This document shows, one piece after another, positions 9,753-37,900 of a stretch of 64,000 nucleotides of DNA. The notes beneath the pieces were generated by a model. It was given only the letters and a program-made list of their open reading frames with translations. It was not told the DNA's origin and did no database searches. The first letter of the stretch is position 1. Each line of letters opens with the position of its first letter. This DNA is from Paralvinella palmiformis (lineage: Eukaryota; Annelida; Polychaeta; Terebellida; Alvinellidae), in the NCBI GenBank assembly GCA_025642065.1, contig JAODUP010000677.1, positions 272,501 through 336,500 on the forward strand, read 5' to 3'. Made by a program: the position numbers and the translations under genes.

Positions 9753-9944
9753 TTAACAGCATCACCGGCAACAACATTATGGTGTCATTGCCCAATGCCG
9801 TGACAACAGATTTCCTGACAGATGGCATGTCTATGCCTAAGGGTTTCATGAACGATGAAGAAAAGACATTTCAGTATCAGAACCAGCTGCCATCGCTGCC
9901 AATACCTAATCTGAGTGTCACACTGGCCAAGTATCTGGACTCAG
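9753..9944 (+). CDS. CROT: CROT exon 1 (first coding exon; ATG at 9779)
   Basis: The acceptor AG is at 9751-9752 and the donor GTAGGT at 9945. Since an acceptor is present, at least one 5' untranslated exon must lie upstream. ATG 9779 gives 55 codons plus one base. It contains TFQYQNQLPSLPIPNL, which matches the conserved start of CROT and the carnitine acyltransferase signature LPxLPxP. A second in-frame ATG lies nearer to the conserved part (MNDEEKTFQ) and would give a protein closer in length to the vertebrate form. Confidence 0.9.
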
Positions 9945-12550
9945 GTAGGTATCAATATATAGCTATTGTTGTGTTGAACATGATGTAGGCACTATCAATG
10001 AGGATCAACTATTGATCAAGGCATCTCATCATATGATCAATTCAATTCCAGAACTAGAATTGATTTTTTTTAAATGGAATTGATAAATTTGGAATTGGAA
10101 TTAAAGTTTCCTACAAAACAATTTTAATCAGCAAATTAATTTACCACTTCATTTTTTAATTCATATAATAAACTACTCAGAGTAGGTACTATGAGTAGGT
10201 GCTTGGAATAGGTAATAGGAGTAGCTACTCATGGTAAAAAGTAGTAGGTAAAAAAGACTTGAATTGGAATTGATAACTTTGATTTGGAATCAACCAAGTG
10301 GAATTGTCTGATATTAAATTATTTGCACCATCAGATTTGTTTGTCTTCGGTTTACACAAGGCATTACTGTCATCATTCATATAAATAATATCATTAGACT
10401 TACTCAACCGATATACTGGTGTACAATTGTTTATAATTAGATGAAAATAAATTACTAATCTGTTAACTTCCATTTACAAAATCCCTCCTGTTTACAGCTC
10501 GTAAACATATGCCATTCATATGTTATGTCTCTTGCCCAAAAGGATGTTTATGGTTATAGACAACTGAAACTGCCATTGCATCTAAAATTATTTCATCCCG
10601 CTTTTATTTAAATATTTTTGCCAAACATTTGTAGCCATAGTTTATTCAGTGCCTTATATCAGCCATATGACTATGACTGGACCATACGTTGTCTAATCAC
10701 CGTCTATACGAAAACTAACTTAATTTATAATATTCAAAAGTGAGTATTTTTAACGTACTAATAATAATGCATATTTAATAAAGCGCCCTTACTAGCAGGA
10801 GCCATTCAAAGGCGCTGTACAAATAATATGCAATATAATAATACTCCAAATGATATGTCTGTACAAAAACCTATAAGAGATTTAAAAGATATTTATTATT
10901 TATCTGTGAAAGCAACCTTGAACAGGTGGGTTTTTAGAAGAGATTTAAAATTTTCAAGACACGATGCATGTCTAATATCTGCCGGCTACCTATTCCACAA
11001 AGTGAGGGGCTGCAACACTAAATGCACAATCACCATATGACTTGAGCCAAGACACTGGCACCTGCAATAGTATCTGACTGGGTGACCTGAGTTTTCGGGA
11101 TGACTTTCTAATGGAAACCAGTTCACACAGGTATTCTGGCACCATATCATTAATAGATTTATAAGTTATTAATAAAATCTTGAAATGGATATGCTATCTA
11201 ACAGGTAGCCAATGTAGTTTTTGAAGAATTGGGGTGATATGATCATATTTTCAAGTATTTGTCATTATGCAAGCTGCACTATTCTGAATTCATTGGAGGC
11301 GATTGATGTTATAATCAGATATGCCACATAACAGGGAGTTACAATAGTCTATACGAGATGTAACAAAAGCATAGACTATAAGTGCTTCTTGCGTCAAGAA
11401 TGCTTAATCATCTGAATCGAATGCTGTTTTAGCCAGAGTCCCATTCAATTCGATATTTAATGAATAAACTCTTTCATTATGAAATATATAACAAAAACAT
11501 GTTTACATTGAGACAATTCCATATTAGTAGAAACATAGGAAATTACTTCAATATCTTATATATAATAATAGACATAATTGACAAGAGTTTTATAATTATA
11601 GAGAGCCTTTGGATTATAGGACTCAGTAGTCTGTCTCCTCCGTCCTAGCTATGTATTTAGTTAAATACATTACTAAAATGTTAAAAAAGGGAGCCACAAA
11701 TTATTTTAGGGGTGTTATCATTTACAGTATTTGTTTTTAATTTTCAGTTTCAGTTCTCAAATTGGTTCACAGAATGTGTCATTTAACTCAACTACCGGTA
11801 GCTCATTTATTCACATTTCAAAATGCTAGTTAGAAAACTCCTAAAGAAATCTTAGTACCATGCCAACGTTTGCCAGTTGGCATAGGAATGAGGAACACTA
11901 ATATATTTATGTGCGTGTCCATGCCTGCACACATTTACACACTGTATATTTTCTTTTTCAGTAAAACCCTTTTTAACTGATGATCAACTTCATGAAACAC
12001 AGGCCCTACTAAAAAGATTTGAATCTGGTGAAGGGAGAGTTTTACATGAAAAATTTGTGGAGAAGTGCAAGAACAAACGTAACTGGGTGAGGATATTTGG
12101 CGATGCTCAAAGATTAATTGTTATCACATTAATTTCCTACATCGGATGATTATAGAGCAGAGAACATTTGGAAAGGTCAGAGTTGAAAATTGTGATAAAA
12201 AGCGCCGGAACACTGAATGACAACTTCTTGGGTTTCGACGCAAATCATAATCTGCAAGACTGTCGGTTGCGGATGTAGTTTAGTTTTAGTGAAATAATTT
12301 GAGTTAATTTCTTTACATCTAATGTTATGTATGCGGTATGTTTCAGCTTGAGAAGTGGTGGGAGGAATATGCATATCTGCGTATCAGAGAGCCACACACT
12401 CCATTTGTCAACTTCGCTGGTCCTGGTCCCTATATAGAGAAATACTGGGCACCGAAGGATGGGTCTCAGATAGAAAGGGGGGCCATGGTGTTATGGTTTG
12501 CCCTACAGTACTGGTTGGTTATTAGACAGTGAGTATATTTTTGTTGGTCT

Positions 12551-13533: not shown

Positions 13534-15687
13534 GTGTGTGTATGTGTGTGCATGTGTGTGTGTGTGTAAAATGCATGACTATTTTACCTTATAAACACTA
13601 CAATATTGTTTCATGCGGCTATTAGTTTCAACTGTCAGCACATTTCTGTGGCGTGTGTATTCTCTTCTCAAACAAAACTAAACTTAATCTAGGCCATTTA
13701 CAAGGAATAAAATCTAATACAGCATGTTTTTCCAAAAATACATGATAGTAGAAATTCTATCATAATGTGTAGAAATCTCATTCAAAGTACTACACTTCTT
13801 CTGCACAGTTTAGTACATTGAATGGACAAGCATATATATAAATTGTTACACAAATGATGAATGAAGTTTACAGCATACTATGTGCACAATATAATATCCT
13901 GAAAATATAACAAAATGAAAAACCTGTCAATCAATGCTATATATATATATATATATATATATATTAGTATTTTTGACTGATCTTCAGCTTGTAATCAGTC
14001 ATTAATTACCTGTCCAACCTTCTCATCCATAGGTGGGAGATAGTATGAAGTATACTTATGTATACTTATGTCATAATTTCATTTTTAATTGCAGATTTGT
14101 TTTATTTTTTATCTATGATTGAAACAAAGTTTCAAAATATTTTTGGCTACATCGGTCCTCACGATAAACTAAATCGGGCGAGTGATCCCCATTGATTGAG
14201 ATGTGAATGCTGCTCATAAAATCACAGTATTAACTAATATTGAGAGTAAACTAGTCATTTTTGTATCTAACTGGATTACGGTAGTCTAAGCGTATTTCTG
14301 GGAGTTCAGAATGAGGTTATTAAGAACGTGTGATATTTATGATGAATAACTGGTGAATGTTTGCCATTATTTTGCCACTTTTGTTTACCCCCATAACCCA
14401 CAATTTGTTTTTCCTAAACCCACTCCCAAGTTTTACATTTTTATTCCACCCAACTCACATAATTTAAACTCTAGCTCACACTAATATTCCCCATTAACTA
14501 TGGCATCTGTATATGAAATGTTCCCATTTTATCAAGTAGTTTCATTTTGTATGCCATGTATGAAGTTAGTTGTAATACATTTTTTCAGATTAATACACTT
14601 TATGCAGGTTTACTAATAAATATATTTTATCATTATATAAATTTATAAGTATGCATTTGTGATAATATTCATTATAGATCTTGTTTTAGTTAGTGATTTG
14701 TTGTATGTCCACAAACTGAAGTATAAGGATACAATGTCCCCTGGAGGTATTTTGGCATTGGGCATTATAGTGTCCTCCGGATAAGTTATGATAGTATGCA
14801 GCATCCAAGTGGACTATGTGGCCTCAAAAATAGGGTTAAAAGGTCTGAATAGGCAAAACACTGTGGTCTTTATGCCATTAGATTCAGACATATCTGGGGA
14901 ATAAAATTCATCTTGGGGGGACACCAGATCTTTTTACACCAGTCTGTGGTCAACAAACCAATAATATTGTGTTCACGCAGTAAAAATTGATCACGTAGAT
15001 GCAGTTAATCCCGAGATCTTAAATTCTTATGAAGTTACATAGATGTCTACATTCATTCTACTAGTGTATACTTAATTAAAGGAGTGTCTTAAATTATACC
15101 AAAATTATTTCACAGATTTTATCAATCCATTCACTGGCCATAACATACCACAAACAATTATTGCACACACGTCAGCTGTCACTATCATTCACGATAATAT
15201 TGACATAATTAAAACAATGTTTTTCGGTGTTAAACTGTTACATTATCTCCGACGAGACTAATTTCTTCATGATTCTACATAAAATATGCATCATATTCAA
15301 TTTCCTGACACCTACCTAGCACCATAGATAGAGATAGAGATTTATTGACATAAATATATACTCAGTGAGATATCAAGATACATTGTTAGGTAATATTATT
15401 ATGTCTGATATAAGTACATAGATTTCCAGAAACTGACCCACAATATTGCCACCCATATAGTTATAACTGGAATAGCCCTAAAACATTAAACATAATCCAC
15501 TGATTTAATATAAATTTTTCATTCTGTTTGTTGGTGATATAGACAGCGCTTACAAGTGGAACGAGGTGGTGGTAAAACTGTCTGGTGTATGGAACAAATC
15601 CATCGCCTCTTCAATGGATGTAAAACACCTGGATTTGAAGTTGATAAACTACATCATCACTTTAAGACAGGTAAATATACATAATAA

Positions 15688-16475: not shown

Positions 16476-16848
16476 TCTTAAAATACTAATATCTGTATTT
16501 GATGTAGTTACCATAGACAGTATAAGACATCTACTCATTAACCACACAAGTTAATATGATCTTTCTCTATTTATTATCAACAGAGGAAGAAGGTAGCTGT
16601 CCCACTTATGTTGTTGTTACATCAAATGGACGAATGTACAAACTGAACATTGTACATGAAGATGGCAGCATTCTGACTGTACCCGAATTGGAGGTATACG
16701 AGCCTCTCCATCGTGTCATTTTGTATATAGAATTATTCGTCTATCATCTTGATTTAAATGGGTTTTGAGTGGCCATCACAGTTATGACTGTGTGATGTAA
16801 TGATGCAATGTCATGCGCGATGAGGTATTTTCAACATACACATCTGTC

Positions 16849-16882
<34 letters not shown>

Positions 16883-19800
16883 TGTATATAGTAAGGCTAT
16901 ACTCAAGTAAAAACTCGCCATTCAACCTTGAATTGTTTCAGTGAAGCACTTGATATTAATTTGTAGTAAATGTGTAAGTGCAACAAATGTTGCAGCTCTA
17001 ACTTAAGCATTTTTATATTGGTGTGTGTGTGTGTGTGTGTGTGTGTGAGTGATTATAGTTTATACTCGATATTTTCTGATCAGATTAAATTGAGAACAAT
17101 CCGAGATAATAGCACAAGACTGGGACCAGGTATTGGGCTGGGCACTCTCACCACAGAAAACAGAACGACGTGGGCAAAGGTACAGTATAAGATGAAGATT
17201 ATTAATGCACGACTTGAAACGTATACCATTAACATATATGAATTATATCAGTTTTAAGTTATTGTCATGATCCAGGCTAGAAAACTGAAGACAAACAATG
17301 TTGATGGCTCCGAACCATTTCCTGCTTTCTGTCATGAATTTATGTTGCAAGAGTTTAGCTTTTTAGACTTTAAATCTACCAATTCATATGTTCATTTCAG
17401 CTTCGGGAGCATCTTCTCTCCCTCCACCCTGATAATAAATGTTGTCTAGTTACTGTTGAGGAAGCCATTATGTTAGTGGCACTTGATGACAGAAAGCCGA
17501 ACAACTTGCAAGAGGTCAGTATGACAATGGTCATCTTCTAAATGTTACACAAGTAAAAAAAACATTCAGTCCAAGTTTTTAATACCATTAGAATGAGATA
17601 ATAATGTTTATATAATTGATTAAACAATTGAAATGCAGAATCCATTAGTTTCTTTTTGTTTATTAGAAAGTCTACCCAAGTTGAAAATGTCAGATTTATT
17701 TCTGATTAAAGAAGCCTGAGATAAAAACATTAGTTTTCCACGTGAAGTTTCAATTTGTTTGTATTTCTGCCTCCGTCCAATGTTACTAGGCCTGAAAGTG
17801 TGTGTTGAATTCTAACATTGCAAAATCTGTAACGGTACAAAAATAAGTAGTGAGAATTACCTGCAGATTCACAGTTTGTCGAGTTATATACTGAGCCACA
17901 GGTCATTTTTGACATACACAAAGATCTGGTGAGAATCTGATAGGGGCAATGTGGGAGTCTACCCTTTGAGAACAGTAGCATATCATTTATTTCCACTTTG
18001 ACCGTACAATTCTGACAGCTGATTGTAAACAAAACATCAACCCTTGGCTCTTCAGTACGCATGCTGTTATTTGTCGTTTAGCCTGTGGGCTGAGAATTCT
18101 GCCCAATGGCAGAGCTTCTAACATCAGACCCTGGTAGTTTGTTTGGTGGAAAGAAGAAATAATCCAAATTATCGCACACCAGAAGGGGGAATGAATTTGA
18201 CGGATTTATCCTCAGATCATCTAACTATCCCCAGTCCATGCCTTTCCTTATAAAATTTGGATCCAGATCAAGTCAGGTCACTTATGTCCTGGCTTAGTCA
18301 TCCTCATTACCTTACCAGCCCCCCCCCCCATGCTCAACCTACTAACTGATGCCCTTATCGGGTCATTTACATAAATCTGACAGTTCTATAGATGCTCCTC
18401 GTTACAAGAATATAAAACTATCTGCAAAAGGAATTTCAATCTAAAGTTTCCTTTAGCTATTTCAGTAATGTATCATTCTGTTTTGATCAACTATGCTGTA
18501 ATCATCATAAATATGCTTTGTTTTTTAAATGTTTTGTAGCTCTTCAGGACCACCCAGTCTGTGTGTGACTTCAAAATAGTGGCACCCACATATGAATTAT
18601 AGTCAATTAACCAGCACTTTAAACTGGATTATTTATTTTGTGGTTAATTGTGTTGATATTTTGACATCAGTTAAAATTTGAATGTGCACATATTTCTATT
18701 AGTCCTGAAAATTGGAAATGAAGATGAACCATTCTTTTAACTGTGTATTAGAACAAACAGACCTTCGTGTGGCTGGTCTCATTTGTTCACGTGGCAGTTC
18801 ATAACTGTTATTTGTGTTTTATTTATTATGCTTAGATAAAATATATATGTATAAAAAATCTTATGTTGTCATGTACTCAAAAAGAAAGCATTTGGACTGG
18901 TAAAACATGATTCTTCATCTACGAACAACAATCACCATATATTTTGACTATGTCATATCTCTATGGGGTTCAACACATAAAACCTCATGTGAACAAAATC
19001 TTCATCAAGCCAAAAAATGTAACCAGAATCATGACTGGAACACGGTACAATGTGCACACTAATCCAGTGTTCAAAAAATTTAAAGTTGCTAAACTTGATG
19101 ATTTATAGAAATTACATATATCCAAATACACACATATAAATTTCTTCAAAGAACAATCCTGCCCCCGCTCACAATTCTCTTTTTTTCATAAATGAAATGA
19201 TCCACACACATGACACCCAAAATAGACAAAATCTGCATGTAGTACAACGACAAATTTCAATAACATCCAAAAGTCTACGCCCCAGGGGTCCAGCTATATG
19301 GTACTTGACTCCAAAATAAATGACTGCTAAAAACAATCGAGTCATTTGGCAATCATTTTAAGAAGATCAATAATTATTAATGTTTGTGGTGTCACTGAGC
19401 CATGCCTAGAGTGTATTGCCACGATTGTCACAGCTGTAATGTATTAATCCTGGTTTTTTTGTGACATATTCCCCTGTCCTGTTGAACTACAGGCCCTCGG
19501 TCACTCATCACTAATTACAACAGAGGTGTCACAGGTAGACAGCTCGAGTATCTATGTAACACCTCGGCAAGCATGTAGCTATGTACATATGTATTTGAAA
19601 AAATTGGATTATGGTATTATGTAAATGCTTGCTGAATAAATATATCCATCAATCAATCAATCACGTTATAGCAGAGCCACACTGTGTCTTTCTGCTAACT
19701 GTACCAATTCATTTACCTACCGATTATCTTGATAGCAATATTTAACTCTGATATAAAATCTCTGAAATAGTAAGCATCAAATGAAGTATTGATTAAGTGC

Positions 19801-20623
19801 CCAAATTCTTACTGCCGCCAGTGAAAATGATAATAAACTGATTTATGCCAGTTAATTGGTTTAAAAAGTTGAAATTCAACTTAGTTTCTAATCAGATATC
19901 ATAGAAATATATCTACTTGATTCTGTTAAATAAATCCTCCAAACTTGTAGTTGTTCACCTGGATGCCAACTCGTTCATAAATTATCAACTTTTCAGTAAT
20001 GAGACGTTTCCAGAGAGGGAGTTGTGACTGTAAAACACCTTGATGCTACAGTGATCTCCAATTAACGTTATTTGACTTTATTTATCATTGTTATTTCATA
20101 TATTCATCAACTTTATTCTAATTATTTTCCTTATCTGTCTGTAGCTGGCAGTAGAAAGTCTGTGCGGAGATCCCTCTAACAGATGGTTTGATAAGACACT
20201 CCAGTTATGTATCTTCGACAATGGGTCGGTGGCTTGTAATGGTGATGTAAGTATAATTATGGGATGTTTAGATCTATTTTACTTTTACGACGTGATGCGT
20301 AACGATGTAAACAATGTAAACCGCATTCACTGGACTACTCGGCTTAAGAATAGACCTGTCTTAAAAGAACACCTGTCTGGTTTGATTAAAGAGGTTACCT
20401 ATATTATATTTTTCTATTATAAGGTAATTGGTAAATAATTATTTAGGTCTCTTTTGTTGTATATTTATAAGCTGATAATTTTATTATGATAATTGGTGTC
20501 TGTGTAACAGCTCATTCATTAACATGTGTTTATATTGTAGGTCATACTTGCAGTTTGTGGTTTATTGGTTCATTTATAAATGGTCTTGCTTGATTACCAG
20601 TGAAAAATCTTTATCAGTAGGGA

Positions 20624-21127: not shown

Positions 21128-22546
21128 TTGCCTCCCTTTAATCCAAATATGGGAGACCTAGGCACTCAGAGAGATAGGAAGAGAGAGAGCTGTCGCAATA
21201 GCAAATAAGTTTTGGTGTGTTTCACCTTTTGATAATCTAAGATATGCTCTGATGGTGAGGCCAACAGAGCACTGCACTATAAACTTACAAGCCAGGGTTA
21301 TGAGGCCAAGTGATAATGGTGTTTGTGCGATATTTCCTTTGAGAGTCATCCATCAAGCTTTTTGTGATCAGCACCGAAGTTAAGAAAATTGATCACTCAC
21401 TGATCAGCTAGGAGTGTTAAGATTTATGTTATTCCTATAAAATGTTGTCTATTTCAACTGTTGTTCTGTACTGATGATGAGTTGATAACTTTGTACCATG
21501 TACATTACAGCACGCCCCCCACGATGCCATGGTGATGATACACCTCACAATGTGGACATTTACCGGAATATACACATCGGGTGTGGCATGGCAGGTAGCT
21601 CAGCAATGTGTTTGGTTACTAGAACAACAGGGTTTTGTGTTATTTTTATGTTGCTGTATTCCTGTATTGTGTGTGCATGTGTGTGTGTGTGTATGTATGT
21701 GTGTGTGTTCTACTAATCCCTCTTACTTGTCTTAAGTAAGCGTTATTTTGTTGTTGTTTGTTCTGACCTTTCCTCATTATTTCCATCTGTTAAAATGTCT
21801 ATTTTTCAAGTATATTAAGTTTACTTTGTTTCAGTTTCAATTATTAATAATAATAACTTTCTCTACCAGCTGTGAGGGGTTTAATGTCCAGTTTTGTGGT
21901 TTAAGATTTAGGTTCCGCCTGTGAGCTCCTTAATGTATTAGCTAGCTCATAAAATTGTAAAAAGGGCATTTGCCGTCCATTTAATTAAATAGTTAACAAC
22001 TGTTCAGTAATCCTAATGAAACACAAATTGGCACATGAAACTAAAAGAGGCCCCCAACAATGAAAGAGCCTCGGTTTGGGTAAAATATAACATTACGATG
22101 ATAATTGAGCCAGGTAAGCCAGTTTTAAGTGTTCTTCTGGACCTGTCTGTTGCCTTTGATACAGTTGACAAAAATGTACCTACTCTAAATTAAAAGACAT
22201 ATTTGATTTATCAGGTAAATTACCAGACTAGTTTCAGTCATTTTTGGAACAATGCTCCTTGAGAGTATCTGTTCATAGTATTTAATTATTCTGTCATTAT
22301 TATCTGGTATGCCGCAGGGTTCAGTTCTGGATCTTTTGGTTGTGACAATGTATACATGGCTTCTTGTTATGATTTGCCCAATAATATGACACACTGTGAC
22401 ACATACTCAAAAATAGGATCATATCACCCCAATTCTCCAAAAAGTGTATTTGATACCTGTTAGACAACAATTCTATTCAAAATTATAATTAATTAAATAA
22501 AAATTATAAAAAGCAACATGGCTGGATATCTATATCTATCCTTGTG

Positions 22547-22583
<37 letters not shown>

Positions 22584-25500
22584 CATGGTCTCCAAGCTGA
22601 TGTCATCATCAGTTGTCATATTACTGTCATTCACTTGGCCAGGTAACCTCCAAAGATAATCAGACAGAATGAAAGATAAACACCCTTATGACATAGCCTG
22701 GCCAGAGTTTGAACTCAGGTGCTATAGCTCTGTAATGTACCACATTACCGATGAGGCCATGGAGGTGCCGTACCTATGTCTAAGATAGTTTGTTCAATTT
22801 TCAATGTTTATACGTAATATTCGGCTGTTAGCCGGTAGCCTGATGATAGATGAAGACTGTTTTCATCACATGTTGTCCTTTACTTGTTCAACCAAGTTCT
22901 GGCACATACAGCTCAGTGGATAGCTAAAGGTGATCAGTATCAATTAACTTATTAATGGATATTTCCAAGTTATTTTCTGTTCTTGAATGAGTTTGTGTAG
23001 GTTTAGAAGATCAGCAGGACAATGACAGTCAGCATCTTTGTCCAGATTGCCCACGAGCAATCCTTACATGGCTTGGTATCTAAATCTGCAAGATAGTCGT
23101 CACTTGTGTTGTTGGTTGAATACATTTCCTGACATATCATGACATACTCTGAAACATCATCAGCTCCATGTGCAGAAAGAATGAGTTCATGTTTGAAGCT
23201 TGTGTCTGTGCGTGTCTTCGCGTATGCTTGTAAACCCTTCAGTCAGGATTTCTTCCCATGCTCCAGGTTCATCAAGGCTATGATCCAACCACTGGAGCAA
23301 CCGAACCAGTCTCTACGATCATTTCATTTCGTTATCTCCGAGCTCATTCTGTGATCCAGACTGCTAATCCATAAACCATTGTATTTCTCCCTGTTGCTAT
23401 GGTTACAGCATGCTCCACATGATGCTATGGTGGTGATCAACTTAGCGTGGTGGCTAGATACAGCTGTGTTTTACTGCAACAAGAAGTGGAAGATTTGAAT
23501 GTTTCTTAAACCCGTCAGATTTTAGATGATGTTTAGCTTATCTAACAGTGTGGCAACATGTGTCAAGTCAAAACAAACCCATCTCTGTGTCATACGTTAC
23601 AAAAACTTGAAGCATCTATTATTAAAACGTTTAAATATCGTATAATTATCTGTTTCATGAAAGATCTTTTCGCTTATAATAAATTCTTACAGCTGTCGTA
23701 CCGTTATTAGTTCTGCAATACTATAATCTATATTTGTAGAGATTACCTCAGGTAGTGGCTGAGATAGGAATCAAATTGCTTAATTGTTTTGTTGTTGAAT
23801 AGAAGTAACTCATTGAAAATTAAGAGAGATAATTTACTCGAATGATTTATTAAAGACCTGGTGACCAGAGACAAGTGCTGCCACCTGTTTACTTTTCTGT
23901 TAATATATCTATTGAACATTCTGGTTGCATAGTGGTTACAGCACTGCACTGAAAATCTCCAGGTTGCGGGTTCGAATCTGGCTCAGACCCATGTTTGAGG
24001 AATTTGTTTCCCTAGCCATATGTCTCTCAGCTATGTGTCCCAACTGTGACTAGCATCGAGACCAAGCAACTGAATTCAACTCCACTTATATCTATGTATC
24101 TATAAAATTTATGTACAGGAACCTTCTAGATAGTAATATTGTCAACAACGTATCATCATCAAGCTAGATATGAAAGATATACCAAAAAATACCCATCATT
24201 CAGAATACATAAAGTTGTTTTCCACTCCACAATGTGGTATGCGAATATTGCATGCCGTCACCTCAATCCGTATACACCAATTGACACAACAAACATATAT
24301 CAGCTTTGTGGGCTTATACTTTCTTAACAAGACCTGACACACCAATACAAGAGGCGTCAGTTGGTGCTCGTTTTTGGTGCTTGTTAACAATTACATTGGC
24401 CATACCGGGAGCTGCTTTAATAATTCTAAGTGGATTAATGCTGTATTCTGTTTCCAGAAAAAGTTTTCTAAGGAATGTGCGTATATGAAAGATGCTGTTG
24501 GTTGATGGATGGAGTGACGGATGTTCGGGTGATTTAAGTTTAGGCAACAGTCAAACTAAGGAAATGTTGGGAAACAAACGAAAGTATCAAAGCAGAGAGT
24601 GACTTTAATAAACTGACATACGTCAATAGGAGAAAACATGTTGTTATTATACACGTCTCATGTCTGCGATGTAGCTTACTGTGGAACAAACGGTATCTTT
24701 AAAGTCAACACATTTGCCCGATGTTATGTCATCATTCTCTTGTTGAATCCATCATATCACAAGTTGGCTTCATTTTTTCCTCTTTAGGCACTTATTAATA
24801 TTGCTGAAGTAGCTTTTAACAAAAACAAACAGAGAGATGGTTTTGTTATACAATGTTTTGTCGCGTGTAATCTTTGGCTTGGCACCTTTATCTGTCTCGT
24901 GTTTCAGTAGCAGTGTATACACGGGTGTATATAGCAGGACATCGGTATAATATGTGGACCTTTAAGCCACCAGCTGTGGACTGGGACATACGGGGACTAT
25001 GTCTAAAGGGTAAAGGGCCATATGGGGATGTAGATTGAGGCCACCAGCTGCAGACTCGGACATAAAGGGAACAAGTCTAAGGATATCAGCTTTTGTCTCG
25101 GTGATATGGGGATGGGGAATAAGCCGATCGGCTGTGGATTGGGCCATATAGAGATGTAGTTTTGAGGCCACCATCTTTAGACTGGGCCCTATGGGGATGG
25201 AGTCTAAGGCTACCCGCTATGGGAGTAGATGGTATGGGGATCATGGAGTCTACCACCCGTCGACTGAATCGTATGGGGATTGAGTATGTGGTATGAAAAT
25301 GGAGTCTTAGCTCGCCAGAAGTTGACTCGGGACATGTGGGGATGGAGTCTTAACTTACCAGTTCCGCTCTCTGTAGAATGTGGGGATAGTGCTAAACCGG
25401 ACCTGTGGCCTGGGGATTAGGAAGGTGAAGTCTCAGTCTCCCACTTTTGACCTGGGGATATGCTGAATGGGGTTTAAGCACCCCCACCCCCCACACACAC

Positions 25501-25791
25501 ACCTTTAGACTGGGTCATGTTAGTTCATTAAAGGTTATTACCATGGGTTGTGGCGATATTCTCCATGTTCTTGGTTGGTTATTTGTAGGATATGAACATC
25601 AGTAGGTCAGTGAAGTGAATGAGTTGTCTGTCTCAGTTTAATATTGATAAAAGATATTGTCCATGTAACACCCTTGTGTGGCTTGACATCTGACATCGGT
25701 TTTTTGTTGACTCAATACATCACATACTACACCTATTAAGAGATGTATCTGTCGTGTAAAAATAGTGTGTGCAGCCTGAATGATATGTTAG

Positions 25792-25826
<35 letters not shown>

Positions 25827-28800
25827 CCTTCAGGTAAGATTTCTCCCTATAGTTTAGGCTCATCAAGGAAAGTGATTTAGCCGTGGTGTCAACAAGTACA
25901 GTTCTTGCCATCGTTCTGCGATCTCTGAACTCGTTTGTGATCTTCTGGCCCATATATGCCGTTTAGCATTCTATCTCTGCTTGTTGCTATGGTTACAGCA
26001 CGCCCCATGTGATGCTATGCCTTTAATATACTTATCACGGTGGATATTGTCAGCTCAGTTGGAGAACAAGACGAGATGGAAGGTTTGAATATTTCTTGCC
26101 TATCAGATTATAAGTGATGTATCGCTTAAGTCATTATTATGGCACCACCAAAATGTCTCAATGTCATACATTATAGGGTCCTCAAATGGCTATTAATAAG
26201 AATGTTGATCTTTACTTTGTTTAAGCAGCATATTATATGAGAGCTGGAGTTGTATTGATTGTGGCGGTTTAGCAATCTCGTGCTTTTTATTATACCATAT
26301 TAATTGATTCATCTGTAATTAATTCTCATCTATCTGTCTGTATCTTTTTGTGTATATTATCCATATCTCTGGAAGGAGAGTGAGGAAAGAAATTAATTTA
26401 GTGTTTGTTCTTGAATAGAACTTTCTCAAAATTGTCGAACTAGAAATACCTTTAAGAAAGCTCTAAAAGTGAGTGCGGGTAGAATCTTGGAGTGTCGTTT
26501 TTTTTAATCCCCAAATTTGGAATGGCCCATATGAGGATGGAGTATGAGGCCACCAGCTGTGGACTGTATCATATGAGAGTGAATTATCGTGTCACCAGCT
26601 CTGGACTGGTCCAATTATGATAAAGGATTATGAGGCCATATGCTGTGTTACAGTATTTTCAATGGGCAGTTTTCTAAATTCATGGCCAGTTTAATATCAC
26701 CCCCCCCCCCACTACAAGCCATAATTATTTGTATATTATAATACTCACAATTCAACTTTTGCCAAGTGAACCTCTGTGTTTACCATAAGTAATCACAAAT
26801 CTGAGACATCTAGATAAATGTTCACCAGCTCCAACCTTCTTTCCCAAGTGAATCCATGTGTGTACTTTAAGTAATCACAAATCTGAGACATCTAGATAAA
26901 TGTTCACCAGTTCCAACCTTCTTTCCCAAGTGAATCCATGTGTGTACCATAAGTAATCACAAATCTGAGACATCTAGATAAATGTTCACCGGCAAATTTT
27001 TCTATGATGATAAAGTTCCATATGCATATCACTATGTTATGTATTTAAGTAAATATTTGAATTTATAATTAACACTTCACTAAAAAGGACAATAAATGTA
27101 ATGATATCATTGATAATTCTGTTTTGATTTTGTCTTTTTCTGTTTTCATAATTGTTTTCATGGAGAAAAAAACACAATGTATGCCTGGAATTAAAAAAAA
27201 CCATCAACTTTATATGATGAGTGTATTTAAAGTAATCTTTCTTTATACATGTTATTTTTACATTTTTGCATGTCTTGGTTTGATTTATGTTTCATCTTAT
27301 CCTTAATACTGTCTGCTTTCTGATTTTGCACATTTCTGGCAACAATAATTTTGTGCTAAATTATATGCACCTTTTGTTTTACATTTGTCTTCCCGTAATG
27401 TAGAATATAATTTAATTTACATCTGGGAGATATACATACATTACAAGTTTCCGCATAACGTTTTTTTTCTTCAAATATCCTTAATTGTGCTGTATTTCAT
27501 TAAAAACATGTCTTTTTGATTATTAGAGCATTAACTACCCGGTAGATAAAACGTTATTTTTGAATGTTATGGAACTTAAAGCAGAATGATTAAGTGCATC
27601 TTGTTAAATTATAATACAAAGTTTCCAATGATCGAATCGTAGGGTCGCTGCGACATCCAGCCTAGTGCTGATCCAGAAGAACTCGTCTTCCATGTGGATC
27701 CTGTTATCGTGGAAGGCATATCACAGGCCAGAGCTCAGTTCGATCTCAATGTAAGTTATCTTGTGAGTGAGTAGGTAAGTGAGTGGGGGAGTTATTTGTT
27801 TAGCCTCAGCACTGGTCACGCATAACCTACAAAGTAACTGTGACTGAGAGATGACTTCTTAGGGTAATCGCAAATGCCGGATATGAGTTGGATTAGAACC
27901 TACAACTCGGAGGTTCGCAGTGCAGCACACTAACTACTGCACAGTTGGAGCACCCATAACTTGACTTTTATGTTGCTGATTAGCTAAACACTGACATATT
28001 ACATTATCACGCAAGATTCCAGACTTCTCACATCTCAGTCAAATCTTAATTTATCAGTTGACTGTTGATTAACTGGATCATAAAGGTATCCCCCTCCTCC
28101 CCAAACGTTTACCTTAAATATGTAAACAAAATAGGTCAATCATCCAGATTCTTAAAGAAACAACTTCTAACTTTGGTTGCCATAATAATTTAGTTAATCA
28201 GTGTTACCTGTGGAGTGTTTGTTTGTGTGATTTCCATGATTTTACCAAGTTTGGTGCCAGACCTGGGGTGGTTACATTTTGTATCTAGATACATTATATC
28301 TAGATACTTTTTTCAATGTAACTGAAATGTATCTAGATACATTTGTCAATTTTTCAAAATGTAACTGTAACTTATCTAGATACATTGGGAAAGTATCTAA
28401 ATTTCAGTTACATTTCAGATACATTCTAGATACATGATTATTTTAAATACTCATATAATGTAATTACACAATTTAACACTAATAAATATTGTCATTATTA
28501 TATATAATTTTAACATACATCCTGACAATTAATTGAGTGACCTTTAAAAAGTATTAGGAGAGTTGTGCTAATTGTCTCATCTTTCATGTTTTAAATTTTA
28601 ATGGTGAACTGGGAAATATTATCAACATAATAACTTGTGCTAATCGTGAAAGCCACCTTGAAGTCATCAGGCAGATAATGTCATGACACTAATTCTCATA
28701 GAAACATAAATAGTTTGATGTGTTTTGGCTAAATCATTTATAAACCTTGATTGCATCTTTCATGTTTTAAATCACAATTGTGAATTTAGAAATATGATCA

Positions 28801-31800
28801 ACATTAATAACTTATGCTAATCACCAAGGCACCAGTGAAGCCATCACAGATCATGTCCTGACACTAATAGCCCACAGAAACACAATTAGTGTTTGTTTGA
28901 TATGTTCTGGCCAAATCATTTATAAACCAAGAATTTCAGGTCATTGTCATCATAACCAGTTTTCAACGTATCATTGCTTGAACAAATACATTATTATATC
29001 GGATAAACCTTCACTATGACTATTCTTGACCATTTCGACATTCCTGGGCTGGACTGGTGTTCGTCAGCTGACCAGTTAGCATCAATGAAGCAGACCCTCA
29101 AGACAGAGGTCATGTGTATACAACAACCAACTGAACCGCAAGTTTCACAGGAAGATCTGGAACCCCCAGGAGGCGATCCAAGATGGTGTCCTTTATGGGG
29201 AATCGCAGGGTTCCCACAACAAGTTCATCAGCGGACAGTGAGATATCAGATTACTTTGGTCAGCAATGGATTGCAGAAGACACTGATGCATTACCTTATT
29301 GGCAGCAACAACAGCTGAACTTTCCGACACTCGGCAAGCTGGCTAAACAAAACCTCACTGTATCGGCCTCTTCCGCTCCAGTCGAGCGACTATTCAGTAT
29401 AGCTGGAGCTATCTTCCGGCAAGACAGATGCTCACTGAAAGACCATACATTCGAGACCCTTATGTTCATACGAATGAACTCCAAGTAGTATGTTTCTATT
29501 AAAGTTAACAATATGTGAATCAGTATGACCATACCAATGTTTTAACTGAAAATGAATAAACCTGAACAATATTTACTAGTCTTGTCTTTTCTTGTACACA
29601 AAAATATACACCCAATTACAACATACACCACACAGAAAATGTAACTGTAATACGTATCTAGATACATTCATAAATAATGTATCTAGATACGTAACTTTAT
29701 CTAGATACATTTGGAATCTATCTGCCCCGGGTCTGTAATTGATGCCAAAACATAATAACACTTCCATTCAGCAATTCTTCGAATTATGTTTATATAGCTT
29801 TGATTCTGAACTCGTAACTAGACAGCGGCTGCAGAATCTTGGATTATTAAATCCATTTAGACCATAGATTATAGACACCTTAAATGTAAACGATGAACAT
29901 ATCCAAGTTTTTAAGTTGTTGCTGTGTGTGTGTGTGTGTGTAAATCAAATGTGGAATAGTTATAGGTTTTAAGATAATGATTGTGTGTGACTATGTTTTG
30001 TACACAATACTCGGAAGCTCACTTCTTTCAACACAAACCACGTACAGATATGTTGTTTGTTCAGTTTCACATAACCTATAAATATCAAGATTGTATTTGA
30101 TTCAGTTCCTAAATGGCTTCGGTTATAACGAACTTAAAACAGATGGAAATAAACATCGACGTTTCAGGTCAAGGTTTTGCACATTACACACTGGAATCGG
30201 CTACTTCTAGTATTATTGAAAATTTTCCCAAAACAAATTGGTGATGATTGATGTTTTATGGCCACTTCTGTGCACATGGTAGGTATAAATGGGCCAGGCA
30301 ACCTCTAAAGGTTCTGAAAGGAAGTCAAATATGAAACAACCTTCAGCTATGCCCATGCCGAGACTCGAACTCAGGTGGTAGCGATCTGTGATCCAACACA
30401 CTACCAGTTAGATCACGGATGCGCCACTAAACAATCAGCCTCGGAATACCTCCAGATGGCTCTAGAATGGGTCAAATTTTTCCATTTTCCTGGCATTTTT
30501 CTTTCTCTTCTGTTCTCATCCCTGTAATACAGAGCAATTTATAATTACAATACTAGAAAATTAATGTTAATTGTTCACAAAAATATGGTATGTATATTCA
30601 GCTAAAATCTTAATAGTTTGTTTTTTTTGGTCTAAGCAGTACTTGTATGATGATGATGGTGTTGCTGGTGCTGCCGATCATGATCATGATCATGATAGTA
30701 CTTTACACATTGCTTTAATCAGCATGAATTGTTTTAAGGCATGTTACACTGAAAACAGAATTAAAATGTAAATTATGTGTTAATATGGTTTTATGCACAA
30801 ATACGCATAGGTGGCGTGAAAAGAAGATATGGTGTGTTTTTTTTCTTCTGTTGATAAACATTAAATAATCAGTCATAATCAAGATGGGATCTGTTCACAC
30901 ACACACATACACACACTCACACACACACACACACATACAGTGCTCATTGAAATCTTCGTTCTTTATATACCAGTAGTATCTTGTATTAGCCAGTGAATGA
31001 ATCCAATACAAGATTGTTTTTAATGATGATACTACTACTAATAATAATAATTATTATTATTTCATCACTAGGTCCTGTCTCTAGAACTTTGTGTTGACAA
31101 ATACAGAAAATACGGAAAGTCTTTGTTACGAAGCTATAATCATCATCCTGATACATTCATGCAGATGGCGCTGCAGCTAGCTTACTACAGGATGTATAAA
31201 AGGTATGACAGCCAACTGACATGACCTCAATAAAACAGTAACAATATATTTGATGATTTAGAACACGTGTGATATTCTAGATGTTGTGATGTCGGCTGGT
31301 TGAATGTGACCTCCATTCTAGGAAAATCTTTAGGGCCTTTGACTACTTATTTATCCAGTTCTTTGTGTCTTAGCTCATAACAATTAGAAGATATACTATT
31401 CTTTGGTATCTCAGGAAATGAAATATTAGATCAGGATATTAAAGAAATATATATGTATTTCAATTCGTCTTTAATTCTCTGCATACTATATAGAACTATA
31501 TTTGCAAGAATCTACGCTTTTAACCATTAACTCAACTACCAAACCATCAAAATTATATATTGTATTATGTTATATCATATATAATAATGTATTAATGTAT
31601 ACTTCCAACTTCGGCTATTTTCTTTGTCATTGTTTGGAGGAAATTCCTATTAATTTGACAGTTTGTTGGCGAATTTGATGCATGAAAGCATTAATGCTTG
31701 AAGTTATTTTTGTATTTTACATAAAACCAAACATGTTTTCACTTAGGTAAATCATATAATTCTGTAGTTGGTCATTAAAGGGCCCCGGAACAGTACAAAA

Positions 31801-31965: not shown

Positions 31966-34900
31966 TGGGGTAGATTAGCACCTATTAGAAATGGAGGAGA
32001 GGGCATAATGAAATTGCTCTGTTTTCCTGGAGCTCTATTTAAGATGGTCTAGTTGGAGATAAGACATTAAAATAATGACATCAGCAGTAGGGGTATCTGT
32101 ATCATTGTTTATGGGTAGATAATACTAGATATACCCCGAAAAATAATAAAAGGTAGCAGTTGTATATCAGATCAATTGGATCACTCCTTATTCAGTGATC
32201 AATTAGTTTATATTGCTATTATTATCATTGTCACATAACACACCGTTGCTAGGTGGCAACATCGGTGTAACTGGCTCTAACATATCACTCCTCATGTCAT
32301 AGTTTTTATTTTTATCTGTTGCTATTTTCAATCAAGTAAACAATTGAGATTTTCAGAGGCCATTTCATTTCGGATAGCAGCTGCTGAATGTATGACGTTT
32401 CCTTTCCAATTGACAGGCCAGCGCCAACTTATGAAACTGCAAGTACACGCAAGTTTTACCATGGACGTACTGAAACAGTAAGATCGTGTACAGTCGAAGC
32501 TGTGGAATGGTGTACGTCAATGTTAGACCCAACAATAAAGGTTTGTATTTTATATCACGTAAAAAGACGTGTAATTCAAATGAATATCGTAATTCAATGG
32601 CTTTGATCATTATTGCCATTAATTACAATTGCTTTGACACAGGTATGAAGTAATTGTGTAATTCAAATTAATATCGTAATTCAATGGCTTTGATCATTAT
32701 TGCCATTAATTACAATTGCTTTGACACAGGTATGAAGTAACTGTGTAATTCAAATTAATATCGTAATTCAATGGCTTTGATCATTACTGTCATTAATTAC
32801 AATTGCTTTGACACAGGTATGAAGTAACTGCGTAATTCAAATTAATATCGTAATTCAATGCCTTTGATTATTACTGCCATTAATTACAATTGCTTTGACA
32901 CAGGTATGAAGTAACTGCGTAATTCAAATTAATATCGTAATTCAATGCCTTTGATTATTACTGCCATTAATTACAATTGCTTTGACACAGGTATGAAGTA
33001 ACTGTGTAATTCAAATTAATATCGTAATTCAATGCCTTTGATTATTACTGCCATTAATTACAATTGCTTTCGCGAGGCAAACAAAACATCAGCGTAATTA
33101 TAATTTTTTTCTTTAAATATTTCATGCGACACCGGTGCCGTAATTTGAAAAATGGCCCACTTAATTATAGTATTGAACAATTATATTTCAATCTGAGCCT
33201 TGTAATATGTTACAGAATAAGAAGAAATTAGACTTGTTCAAGAGAGCAATGGATAAACATGTCACAATGATGAAGGAAACTGTTGATTCCCAAGGTCAGT
33301 CACAATGACAACATGTTTTTAACTTTACAGACTAGTTTATTAGTATTTCTGGGGGGTGTTCAGGTAAGTTATATGTATTATAAAACAAAAACAATTAATG
33401 GAGATATTTTTTAATTGTGAAATATATTTTTTGCTAACTTTATATTTTTTGTTATTTCTTGCAATACTTCTGTTAACATGGACTCTTAATATTTCATCTT
33501 GGTTACATAAACTTCTACTGAAATGTTTCTCAGCTGTCAAACAGTAATACAAATATATCACGAACCTCTCTCGTTTCTTCTGGATCTGTCAGTATTACCC
33601 TTTAAATCCTCCACCCCTCCTATCTACCATAACAATAACATTAAACTACTTGAAGCGTCTGAATGAATAGGAACTGTTTACTAACAAAAGTAACAATTAT
33701 AATAGTTAACGTTCATTTCAGGTTGTGATCGACACCTGTTTGGCCTTCAAATTACTGCTCTAGAAGAGAACTTACCGACTCCAGAGATCTTTACACATCC
33801 ATCTTGGACAAAAAGGTAATATGGATCAGCGTCTTTTAAATCCACTGTTGATAGAATCAATTGTAATAACGCAGGAAATAGTTTAAACTATCCAGACAGA
33901 GTATTTTTAGAAGTATGCCTGTGTCTGGTGTATAAATTAATAAAAAAAATTATTTACTGGATCTATTATTGACGTGTGGGGTTTATATTTTATGGTAAGA
34001 GGGTTGTTCTCATTGATGAACTTATTTAACAGCTTTACCAATGTTAAGTTGTTTATCATTTTCACTATTCAGTGAGTAAGTTAATGAGTGAGTTAGAGTT
34101 TGGGTGAGTTGAGTATGTGGGTAAGTGGGTTAGTCCTACAAAATCCAAAATGAAGGAGATTTAAGTTTGTAGAATATTTACGTCATATGTGGAAGGTGTT
34201 TTTAATATGCCCGAGGTGTTATTACGTATAACACATGTAGGTGTGGTCTTACGAGCTGTGTTTTATTGGTGTGATTAAGTTTTCTCTTATTTTCTCTTCT
34301 CCGATATACACCATTATTGTGTTGGCGTGTGTTCTATACGCGCTATATATTATTATGTGTGTTATATGTTCCAGTGGAGGAGGTGGTAACTTCATTCTGT
34401 CCACTAGTTGTGTGGGCTTCACTCCGTGTTTTGGAGGCGTCACTCCGATGTGTAAAGATGGATTTGGTATCTTCTACAGCATCACTAATGACTTGTGAGT
34501 AATTTGTTTATCATCGTAGTACAATAATGGTTAGATTATCTCTCTCTCTATTTCTCTCTCTATTTTTCTCTCTCACACGCTCACGTACACACGCACACAC
34601 AAACACATATATGCACACTTGTTCAAGGTCATTATTGTGCATGCATTAAATCATATTAAGCAAAGAGTACTAAAACTTAACAAATCAACTGCTGACTTAA
34701 CATTTGCCATACAATAGAAGTACATGTTCGTGACTTGGATACATTATCTCACTCTTCTATACGTTTTTAGAAGATCAATTGATGAATGTTAAGCTCATGA
34801 TATTCATTCATTATTACTATTTAATGTCTAAGCATTAATATAAGTTCATGAATTGAAAGTTAACTATTTACGGTTACTGTCATCTCTGCTAGAAGTAGAA

Positions 34901-37900
34901 CATTTACTGTCAGTCATCTCTGTTTATAGCTACAGTACTCTCAATCATCTCTTTACGGTTACTGTCAGCCATCTCTCTTTACAGTTACTGTCATCTCTGC
35001 TAGAACATTTACTGTCAGTCATCTCTGTTTATAGTTACAGTACTCTCAATCCTCTCTTTACGGTTACTGTCAGCCATCTCTCTTTACAGTTACTGTCATC
35101 TCTGCTAGAACATTTACTGTCAGTCATCTCTGTTTATAGTTACAGTACTCTCAATCATCTCTTTACGGTTACTGTCAGCCATCTCTCTTTACAGTTACTG
35201 TCATCTCTGCTAGAACATTTACTGTCAGTCATCTCTGTTTATAGTTACAGTACTCTCAATCCTCTCTTTACGGTTACTGTCAGCCATCTCTCTTTACAGT
35301 TACTGTCATCTCTGCTAGAACATTTACTGTCAGTCATCTCTGTTTATAGTTACAGTACTCTCAATCATCTCTTTACAGTTACTGTCATCTCTGTTTACAG
35401 TTACTGTCAGTCATTTGTGTTTATAGTTAATGTCAGTCATTATCATTTACATTATATAATTACTAATAATAATGATAAAGATTATTACAAGTAGTTACAT
35501 TGATATATAGATAGATTACTAACTCAGCTGGAAGTAATCAGTTTATATAGCGCTCTAGTCACCTAGATAGCTACTCTAAAGGGCGCTTTCCCATACAAAT
35601 AATCCTATCTTTTAGTAAAAATAATTCTACGTTATATTTAATTTAAAAAATGACGCTGCTACAAGAACTTGTAGATCGATTTAGTTCTCTGAATTCCCCA
35701 AAACGGTAATTTACAAACAATACGGAATTACACTTCTCGTTCCACGCGACGAGAAGATGATGATGATTGCCGTAAAACATCAATCATCATCATCTTCTCG
35801 TTCCACGCTACTACACGGCTTCACTGACCCGTAAACCACAGTAGATGTGGACTGTGCATGCGTCGTGGAAATTTTCTTTTAAATGACGCATTTATTTAAA
35901 TGACATTTTTTGGCTCCTACTCATGTCTGCCCTCTATTGAGTTAATCATTAGTTACTAGTTAGTCGGTAGGTGGCAGCACTCGCTACGCGTTATTTTCTC
36001 TCGACCAGGGAGGAGTTGGCCGTGATTAACCGTACACGTGTTTATCATTATTCGGCCACCTCCCCAATAACTGTCTGGCCAAAAGCTGTAGATCTGGCCA
36101 CTAAACGATTGAATCACCGGGAGAGATCCAGAAACGCTGCCCATCCCACCTGGATAATGGGAGTGATTAGGGGGCGCCCCGCAGCCTGAGATGCGGCGTT
36201 TAATCTAACCAGGTGGAACCCTCTTCTGAACTAATCGTCTGCCGGGCTCTACACATTTCAATCTCGTTAGCATCTGGTCTCCTCTGATAGTTAGAGGTGG
36301 GAAACTGCTGTCGTCGGGTTTGGGTATTATAATGTCATTGTGGTTTTGATTGAGTCTGTTAGACAGTTCATCAGTCAGCCGATCGATTTGTCTGTCCGTC
36401 GGTCAGTCTGTTTGTCTCTGTATGTCCGTCCGTCCGTCCGTCCGTTCGTCTGTCTGTCGGTATATCGCTATGGCTCTATACTTGTACCGGCCTGTGGGTG
36501 TATGTTATATAAGTTTGCTTGTCAGAAGATGAATTAATCAGTCGGACAGTGAGCGAGTGAGTGCTGTGCTTGCTGTGCTTGCTGTGCTGGTGGTCGTGCT
36601 GCTATGGGTGGGAAATGTCCAAATGGAATAGTTTATTGTAATAGTTATCAGACAAACATATTGTTTTAATTATGGCTGTGTGCTACACGCACACACACAC
36701 ACACACACGCACGCACACACACAGACACGCACATACACACAACACACACACACACACACGTTTTATTTATTTATTTTTAATTTCCCTATCCTAAGTCGGG
36801 GCAGGTTGTCTCTGTTGGATAGCCGTAACGCAGTTGGCTGCAGACTTTTAGTATATAGGTTCAAATATGTCTGCTCGGCTTTGTCTGAAGGGTGTTTCAT
36901 CTTCTACTTGACCGTTTTGCGGGTACCTCCGTTTGCACAAAATTTGCCGTAAACTCGCAACATTACACATACTACGCGAGTTTTTTGCCATCCATTCGTC
37001 GATTATCTGCCACCATCACCATGTCTCAGTACTGTAGCCTCTGTACTCTCTCTCTCTGTACGACAAACATTCCGATTATATCAGCAGTTGTTTATTGTAC
37101 TCGGTCCACCTTGTACCCAGTGTCCTGTACGCTTATCAGGTAAATTATCTCTAGTACAATATATCCCAAGTACAGTATTTTGTACAGTACACAGTGTCCT
37201 AGGTCAGGCTAATAATTAGTTTATATTTATTTTGTTTAACACTTTAGTGTTCTGGATTCTTTTTGTTGGAGGTGTTTACTTTATTGATCACTAGGATTAA
37301 AATAACAGACAAATGATGGCAGTGATGCTATCAATGTGTCTTTATAATATACAATGACCCCCCCCCCATCATTGAGCTTCAGACAATGCCTCTATGACAT
37401 AAAAATTTGATCAAACTCAATTTAAATCATAATCTCTCTCCCTCTCTCTGTGTGTGTGTGTGTGTGTGTTAGCAGTCGACAAGATAAAAGTGATACAGAG
37501 AGTCGTGGAATGCAATATTTTGTCGATTCATCCGGGATCTTAATTTTGAGTTGTAATTTTTATTTATGAGACCTATATACCTTCTGACCCCCCTCCCCCC
37601 TCAGAGATATAACAATTATTATAATAGAGGCGTGATGGGGGAGGATTTGGGGAGAACGTCAGTATTAAATTTCCTTTAGTCGAACCCCCCTCCCCCTCTC
37701 AGACTGATGCTTTTCCCATAGTCAGCCCTAACCTTCACCAAACTTCACGCACCATTTAGCCAAACAAATATCTAATGACTTCATCAGACATTACAGTTTT
37801 AAGAAAGTGACTCAGCCATTATAAGATAAACATATTCGTCCTCTCTTTTCGTATAAATATTTCATTGTCAATTTGTATTGGTCCTTTGTTTACGATGAAA

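Follow-up and report, generated by a model that had tools for sequence, protein, structure and literature searches.

In Paralvinella palmiformis, exon 9 of the gene for CROT (peroxisomal carnitine O-octanoyltransferase, an enzyme of fat metabolism), which encodes the catalytic histidine of the enzyme, is present in three tandem copies within the 64,000-nucleotide stretch of DNA analysed in this study (the window). The tandem triplication is certain; exon 9 alone is triplicated within CROT, and each copy, here called a, b and c in the order of the gene, comprises 28 codons in phase 0/0 and keeps the catalytic His. We tentatively favour, as a reading that falls somewhat short of an even chance, an alternative-exon array in P. 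palmiformis CROT, in which copies a and c can be spliced and copy b has recently been disabled.

The CROT gene and the three copies of exon 9

The gene was modelled with tblastn, using human CROT as the query, and with splice sites placed by hand. Fifteen exons were found between 9833 and 34494 on the + strand, with phases consistent throughout; the start codon of exon 1 was our own choice. The exons other than exon 9 are listed below, those without a further remark resting on tblastn and splice sites.

9833-9944, + strand: CROT exon 1
11962-12086, + strand: CROT exon 2
12347-12528, + strand: CROT exon 3
15543-15670, + strand: CROT exon 4
16584-16693, + strand: CROT exon 5
17084-17179, + strand: CROT exon 6
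17401-17514, + strand: CROT exon 7
20145-20246, + strand: CROT exon 8, the common upstream exon, ending in phase 0 ahead of the catalytic His; donor GAT/GTAAGT
27643-27750, + strand: CROT exon 10, the common downstream exon, phase 0; acceptor CGTAG
31072-31202, + strand: CROT exon 11
32417-32540, + strand: CROT exon 12
33216-33294, + strand: CROT exon 13
33722-33815, + strand: CROT exon 14
34375-34494, + strand: CROT exon 15, carrying GGGGNFILSTS

Outside exon 9, all 14 donors are GT and all 13 acceptors are AG. A full-length search against proteins, with a query that carried copy b, found the deposited P. palmiformis protein LSH36_677g03010 (P0004, 548 aa), which matches the model with 97% identity across 93% of the query length. 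This protein matched PF00755 with an E value of 3.4e-154, and its best match in the PDB was CROT with 501.8 bits, as compared with 257 for the acetyltransferase and 211 for CPT2; by whole-length similarity, the gene is CROT and neither CRAT nor CPT2. The species is a deep-sea vent annelid of the alvinellids, and the mollusc relatives that had been proposed for comparison in the original prediction were misplaced.

The three copies of exon 9 are as follows.

21511-21594, + strand: exon 9 copy a, HAPHDAMVMIHLTMWTFTGIYTSGVAWQ; acceptor TTACAG, donor CAG/GTAGCT; the copy present in the deposited protein
23409-23492, + strand: exon 9 copy b, HAPHDAMVVINLAWWLDTAVFYCNKKWK; acceptor GTTACAG, donor position AAG/ATTTGA (no GT)
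25999-26082, + strand: exon 9 copy c, HAPCDAMPLIYLSRWILSAQLENKTRWK; acceptor GTTACAG, donor AAG/GTTTGA

The original prediction had described three 84-nt open segments here, each preceded by AG, in phase 0/0 and beginning HAPHDAM, HAPHDAM and HAPCDAM, and every one of these particulars was matched exactly. The copies lie head to tail with equal phase and length between the common exons. The introns measure 1,264 bases between exon 8 and a, 1,814 between a and b, 2,506 between b and c, and 1,560 between c and exon 10. A profile was built from 23 CROT homologues that we picked from 120 listed matches (11 named as annelids, molluscs, a brachiopod and a nemertean, and 12 taken as lophotrochozoan by similarity). 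When both strands of the 64,000 bases were scanned with it, exactly three stretches exceeded 8 bits, namely copy b, the most family-like (47.1 bits), copy a (34.1 bits) and copy c (34.0 bits). The best scores on the + strand of two shuffled windows, which served as the control, were -5.8 and -11.1, and a chance origin of the three matches was thereby ruled out. Together with the gene model and the PF00755 match, the scan upholds what had been proposed of the gene, namely that it is CROT, that the exon carries the catalytic-His motif and that the triplication is a true tandem one. When the spliced model was compared with the window by tblastn, no other exon was found to be duplicated; one extra row, on the minus strand at 44861-44703 with 28% identity and an E value of 0.088, appears to be a chance match.

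The residues shared by the copies number 13/28 for a and b, 10/28 for a and c and 12/28 for b and c over the whole exon. After the motif they number 6, 4 and 6 of 21, respectively (19-29%), so that the 40-50 percent once estimated for this part was too high. The family-critical residues (HAP.DAM, an aromatic residue at position 15 and W27) occur in all three copies, and H1 together with W27 marks each as the 28-residue catalytic-His segment of CROT. W27 is found in 192 of the 193 homologues whose segment was recognised; no segment was recognised in 2 of 195. The length of 28 residues that the original prediction gave for this segment of CROT holds for all three copies, but the ending RWK given there occurs only in copy c, copies a and b ending in AWQ and KWK.

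Exon 9 of the deposited protein is copy a exactly. The C-terminus of this protein, TKR, arises where the exon 14 donor is read through to the next stop, and exon 15 is absent; the deposited sequence is thus a computed model and no proof that copy a is used. Since exon 15 with its GGGGNFILSTS is missing, the database entry breaks off inside the core of the enzyme.

The last CROT exon, encoding about 45 C-terminal residues, was not recognised in the 29.5 kb past exon 15 (34495-64000). The best candidate, obtained by tblastn of the C-terminal parts of the 23 homologues against 34301-64000, had an E value of 0.48, lay inside a tandem repeat and was rejected. A long last intron, strong divergence or misassembly are possible explanations. 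This unrecognised exon, in a region rich in tandem repeats, would also suit a gene that is failing or a region that is misassembled, in which case the copies would say little on function. We consider this very unlikely, because the 14 other exons are open, consistent in phase and bordered by GT-AG, the conserved regions of exons 12, 14 and 15 are intact, and the exon-by-exon identity to the 23 homologues is mostly ordinary, although exon 5 ranks lowest and exons 2 and 10 stand near the bottom.

Splice sites and possible exon choice

Splice sites were scored with a small matrix built from the 14 donors and 13 acceptors of CROT itself. The acceptors of copies a, b and c scored 7.6, 4.2 and 4.4, the gene's other acceptors ranging from -3.4 to 8.9. 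The donors of a and c scored 4.9 and 6.0, so that both splice sites of these two copies lie within the range of the gene's other sites, whereas the donor position of b scored 0.6 and falls below the leave-one-out range of the other donors (1.0-9.7). Mutually exclusive exons should each have a usable acceptor and a usable donor; a and c have both, and b has AT where the donor GT should be. At 23493 copies b and c differ by one transition, b carrying A. A substitute donor for copy b was sought among 12 GTs in 23430-23550, and none of them gave a full-length in-frame exon; 3 of the 12 gave open in-frame exons, of only 21, 24 or 57 nt. Judged by these letters, copy b cannot be spliced as it stands in the present assembly.

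Under the favoured reading of an alternative-exon array, copy b would have lost its 5' splice site recently, or the A would be an assembly error or a null allele at that site. That all three copies are alive, with such an error or null allele at 23493 or with a rare non-GT donor at copy b, appears improbable. Copy b does have the best family score, a good acceptor and a donor neighbourhood that is 36/46 identical to that of copy c, but the given sequence has AT at this position, the following acceptor terminates in AG, and the site is unlike a U12-type donor.

In the present haplotype, either copy a, the probable default, or copy c would then join exon 8 to exon 10 in frame. The resulting CROT isoforms would be alike except for the 28 residues of the active-site cassette, one of which lies at the floor of the acyl pocket; the use of copy c, the inclusion of one copy per transcript and an effect on the substrate are what we infer. 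Transcripts with copy b or c were not found, as 124-residue isoform queries matched only the unspliced exon-10 open reading frame of the window itself, and P0004 was the only Paralvinella-named entry among 120 listed of 1,262 matches and among 120 listed of 845. No swapped-exon isoforms were apparent in other species among the listed homologue pairs that were more than 75% identical outside the segment, in a homologue set clustered at 90%, which would hide isoforms; the largest gaps within the segment occurred in mammal-like pairs, with 50-57% identity inside it. No paper describing exon choice in CROT was found by title or abstract in the open-licence literature.

Several devices that could enforce exclusivity were considered. 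The length of 84 nt is a multiple of three, so that double inclusion, of a and c for example, stays in frame. With 1,814 and 2,506 nt, the introns between the copies are too long for steric closeness to be the device, and copies a and c both have GT-AG borders, so exclusivity is not enforced by spliceosome type. An exploratory docking scan of pairing with the regions ahead of the copies, covering 313 intron windows, yielded for b and c a best energy of -33.0 (at 25381) versus -31.3 in one shuffle set, and for a, b and c together a best of -27.0 versus -29.0 in shuffles, with no clear common docking site. A protein regulator of exon choice is possible. The idea that the gene chooses among active-site cassettes, with which the original prediction began, thus stands in part: the retained residues argue that the copies were coding, but the choosing itself is countered by the lost donor of b, the proline at position 8 of c and the failure of these searches to find an exclusivity device.

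The same symmetry of the copies permits joint inclusion. Accordingly, copies a and c might be included together as a 28-residue insertion, copy c might be the only one used, or the exons might regulate productive splicing. The chance of any such other use seems slight, since the pattern used revealed a doubled segment in none of the 193 homologues whose segment was recognised, and two consecutive catalytic cassettes would probably break the fold.

The active site and related systems

In mouse CROT numbering the segment extends from the catalytic His 327 to Trp 353 plus one further residue; besides this His, exon 9 supplies the first part of the helix that follows. Position 9 of the cassette aligns with residue 335, a Met in 1XL7 that is replaced by Val in 1XMD; copy a has M here, copy b V and copy c L. 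Among the 193 homologues, position 9 is L in 128, M in 32 and V in 8; all three residues also occur in ordinary single-exon homologues, and each copy is thus within the natural range. Met335 of mouse CROT reportedly lies at the floor of the acyl pocket and is important for catalysis, results ascribed to Jogl et al. in 2005. On these residues, a difference in activity between the cassettes is plausible and a change in acyl-chain preference is possible. Mouse CROT (1XL7/1XL8, with the variants 1XMC, Met at 323, and 1XMD, Val at 335) belongs to the same family and has the same 28-residue segment after the catalytic His. However, the mouse protein contains a single exon copy and 1XMD was designed, whereas the Paralvinella copies are natural M, V and L variants at residue 335. 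If the proposed array is real, the swapping of the catalytic-base segment would amount to a natural series of variant active sites in a carnitine acyltransferase, for which 1XMD offers a solved mutant at position 335 as a comparison.

Alternative exons in tandem are familiar from structural and signalling proteins. In the genes for muscle myosin heavy chain, Dscam and pyruvate kinase M, copies of a single internal exon, symmetric or matched, follow one another head to tail between common exons, as they do in CROT; exclusive use is established in those three genes, whereas in CROT it is a possibility. Among metabolic enzymes, the tandem exons of pyruvate kinase change physiology strongly, and those of COQ2 do likewise. 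In rat CROT, exon repetition in the mRNA arises by trans-splicing; the rat genome has one copy of each repeated exon, whereas the Paralvinella copies are in the DNA.

The closest precedent for the CROT array is that of the a and e exons of COQ2. Exons 6a and 6e are described as mutually exclusive and as switching the substrate of a metabolic enzyme in helminths and in annelids including Alvinella, a close relative of Paralvinella, and exclusive splicing of COQ2 is reported to find support in transcripts from other alvinellids (PMC12403961, PMC7434440). COQ2 resembles CROT in being a metabolic enzyme whose tandem homologous exons have equal length and replace part of the substrate-binding core. 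COQ2 has two exons, both spliceable, with function shown in C. elegans, whereas CROT has three, one of which has no donor. Moreover, exon 9 of CROT carries the catalytic base itself, unlike the COQ2 exon, and exon 6 of COQ2 is 134 nt in C. elegans, so that double inclusion shifts the frame, which the 84 nt of CROT exon 9 do not. By analogy with COQ2 and quinones, the worm might tune its peroxisomal acyl-carnitine metabolism through spliced catalytic cassettes, each bringing its own residue (M, V or L) to the equivalent of position 335, with chain preference or activity varying with tissue, temperature or oxygen; we regard this extension as unlikely.

Probable coding history and the duplicated block

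Copies b and c are embedded in a duplicated block with intron flanks.

23169-23540, + strand: duplicated block with copy b and intron flanks, 67% identical over 378 columns to 25768-26128
25768-26128, + strand: duplicated block with copy c and intron flanks, the counterpart of 23169-23540

Copy a has only 35 bases around the motif in common with copy b. Between b and c, nucleotide identity is 54/84 in the exon, 138/193 in the far 5' flank, 28/32 in the last 32 bases ahead of the exon and 36/46 in the 3' flank. The exon is not better conserved than the far intron flank (p 0.26), and the acceptor flank is better conserved than the exon (28/32 versus 54/84; Fisher p 0.02). In the proposed history, exon 9 would have been duplicated two or more times: an old duplication would have separated the lineage of copy a from the one leading to b and c, a later duplication of about 370 bases would have given rise to b and c, and the copies would afterwards have been retained as coding exons. 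A mobile-element origin of the b/c block was rejected, because no third copy of the block exists in the window.

Past coding use was evaluated from the residues and codons of the copies. Residues identical between copies fall at positions conserved in the family (permutation p 0.001 for a/b, 0.0001 for a/c and 0.003 for b/c). In the seven motif codons, a is separated from b by five changes, each of them synonymous, and b from c by two synonymous changes and two within codon 4, a family-variable position. These kept family residues and synonymous changes argue for past coding use of the copies. When 15 random substitutions, our one-branch estimate from the 138/193 identity of the far flank, were applied to b, the open frame, motif and W27 were kept in 2.3% of 5,000 runs. 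Starting from random homologues, 16 substitutions still reached the copy c score in 23% of runs, which leaves neutral decay possible if the ancestor was more typical. The b/c dN/dS of 0.448/0.66 (near 0.7) is weak. With regard to the family, mean identity to the 23 homologues is 0.320 for a, 0.340 for b and 0.315 for c, so that the copies are about equally far from it. In the leave-one-out comparison with the 23 homologues, a and c each scored above only one and b above seven. With a profile of 117 homologues, in which the homologues scored were part of their own profile, a (34.5) and c (42.1) both fell under the minimum of 48.7 and b lay above one homologue. At position 8, copy c has a Pro that occurs in 0 of 193 homologues. 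Overall, long past coding use of all three copies is likely, as read from these sequence comparisons.

The same data bear on the main alternative, somewhat less probable than the array, namely that only copy a is used and that b and c are relics of exon duplication, with c spliced rarely or never. It would agree with the use of copy a in the deposited protein, the missing GT of b, the helix-unfriendly Pro8 of c, the b/c exon identity no higher than that of the far flank, and the dN/dS near 0.7. However, copy b with its dead donor is the most family-like of the three, copy a is as divergent as c in the profile scan, outside codon 4 all motif changes between b and c are synonymous, and the deposited model, with its read-through of exon 14 and no exon 15, is a prediction and not evidence of use. 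Even with only a single copy in use, the locus captures an exon array in the course of gain and loss, in which the most family-like copy lost its splice site.

The surroundings of the exons contain further repeats, and Rfam found no family at threshold within the 64-kb window. Imperfect repeats of about 42 bases at 24963-25450 and 26504-26647 flank copy c and are perhaps connected with the b/c duplication. An 82-base unit in 2.8 copies (26758-26990) lies between copy c and exon 10, and an 87-base unit in 5.8 copies with 97% matches (32569-33070) occupies part of intron 12. Past exon 15, a 105-base unit is present in 4.9 copies with 97% matches (34896-35409), and a long open frame there arises from the repeat itself. 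Finally, an open frame in intron 10 (29135-29485, + strand) encodes a dimerisation domain of the hAT transposase type (PF05699, E 1.9e-13).
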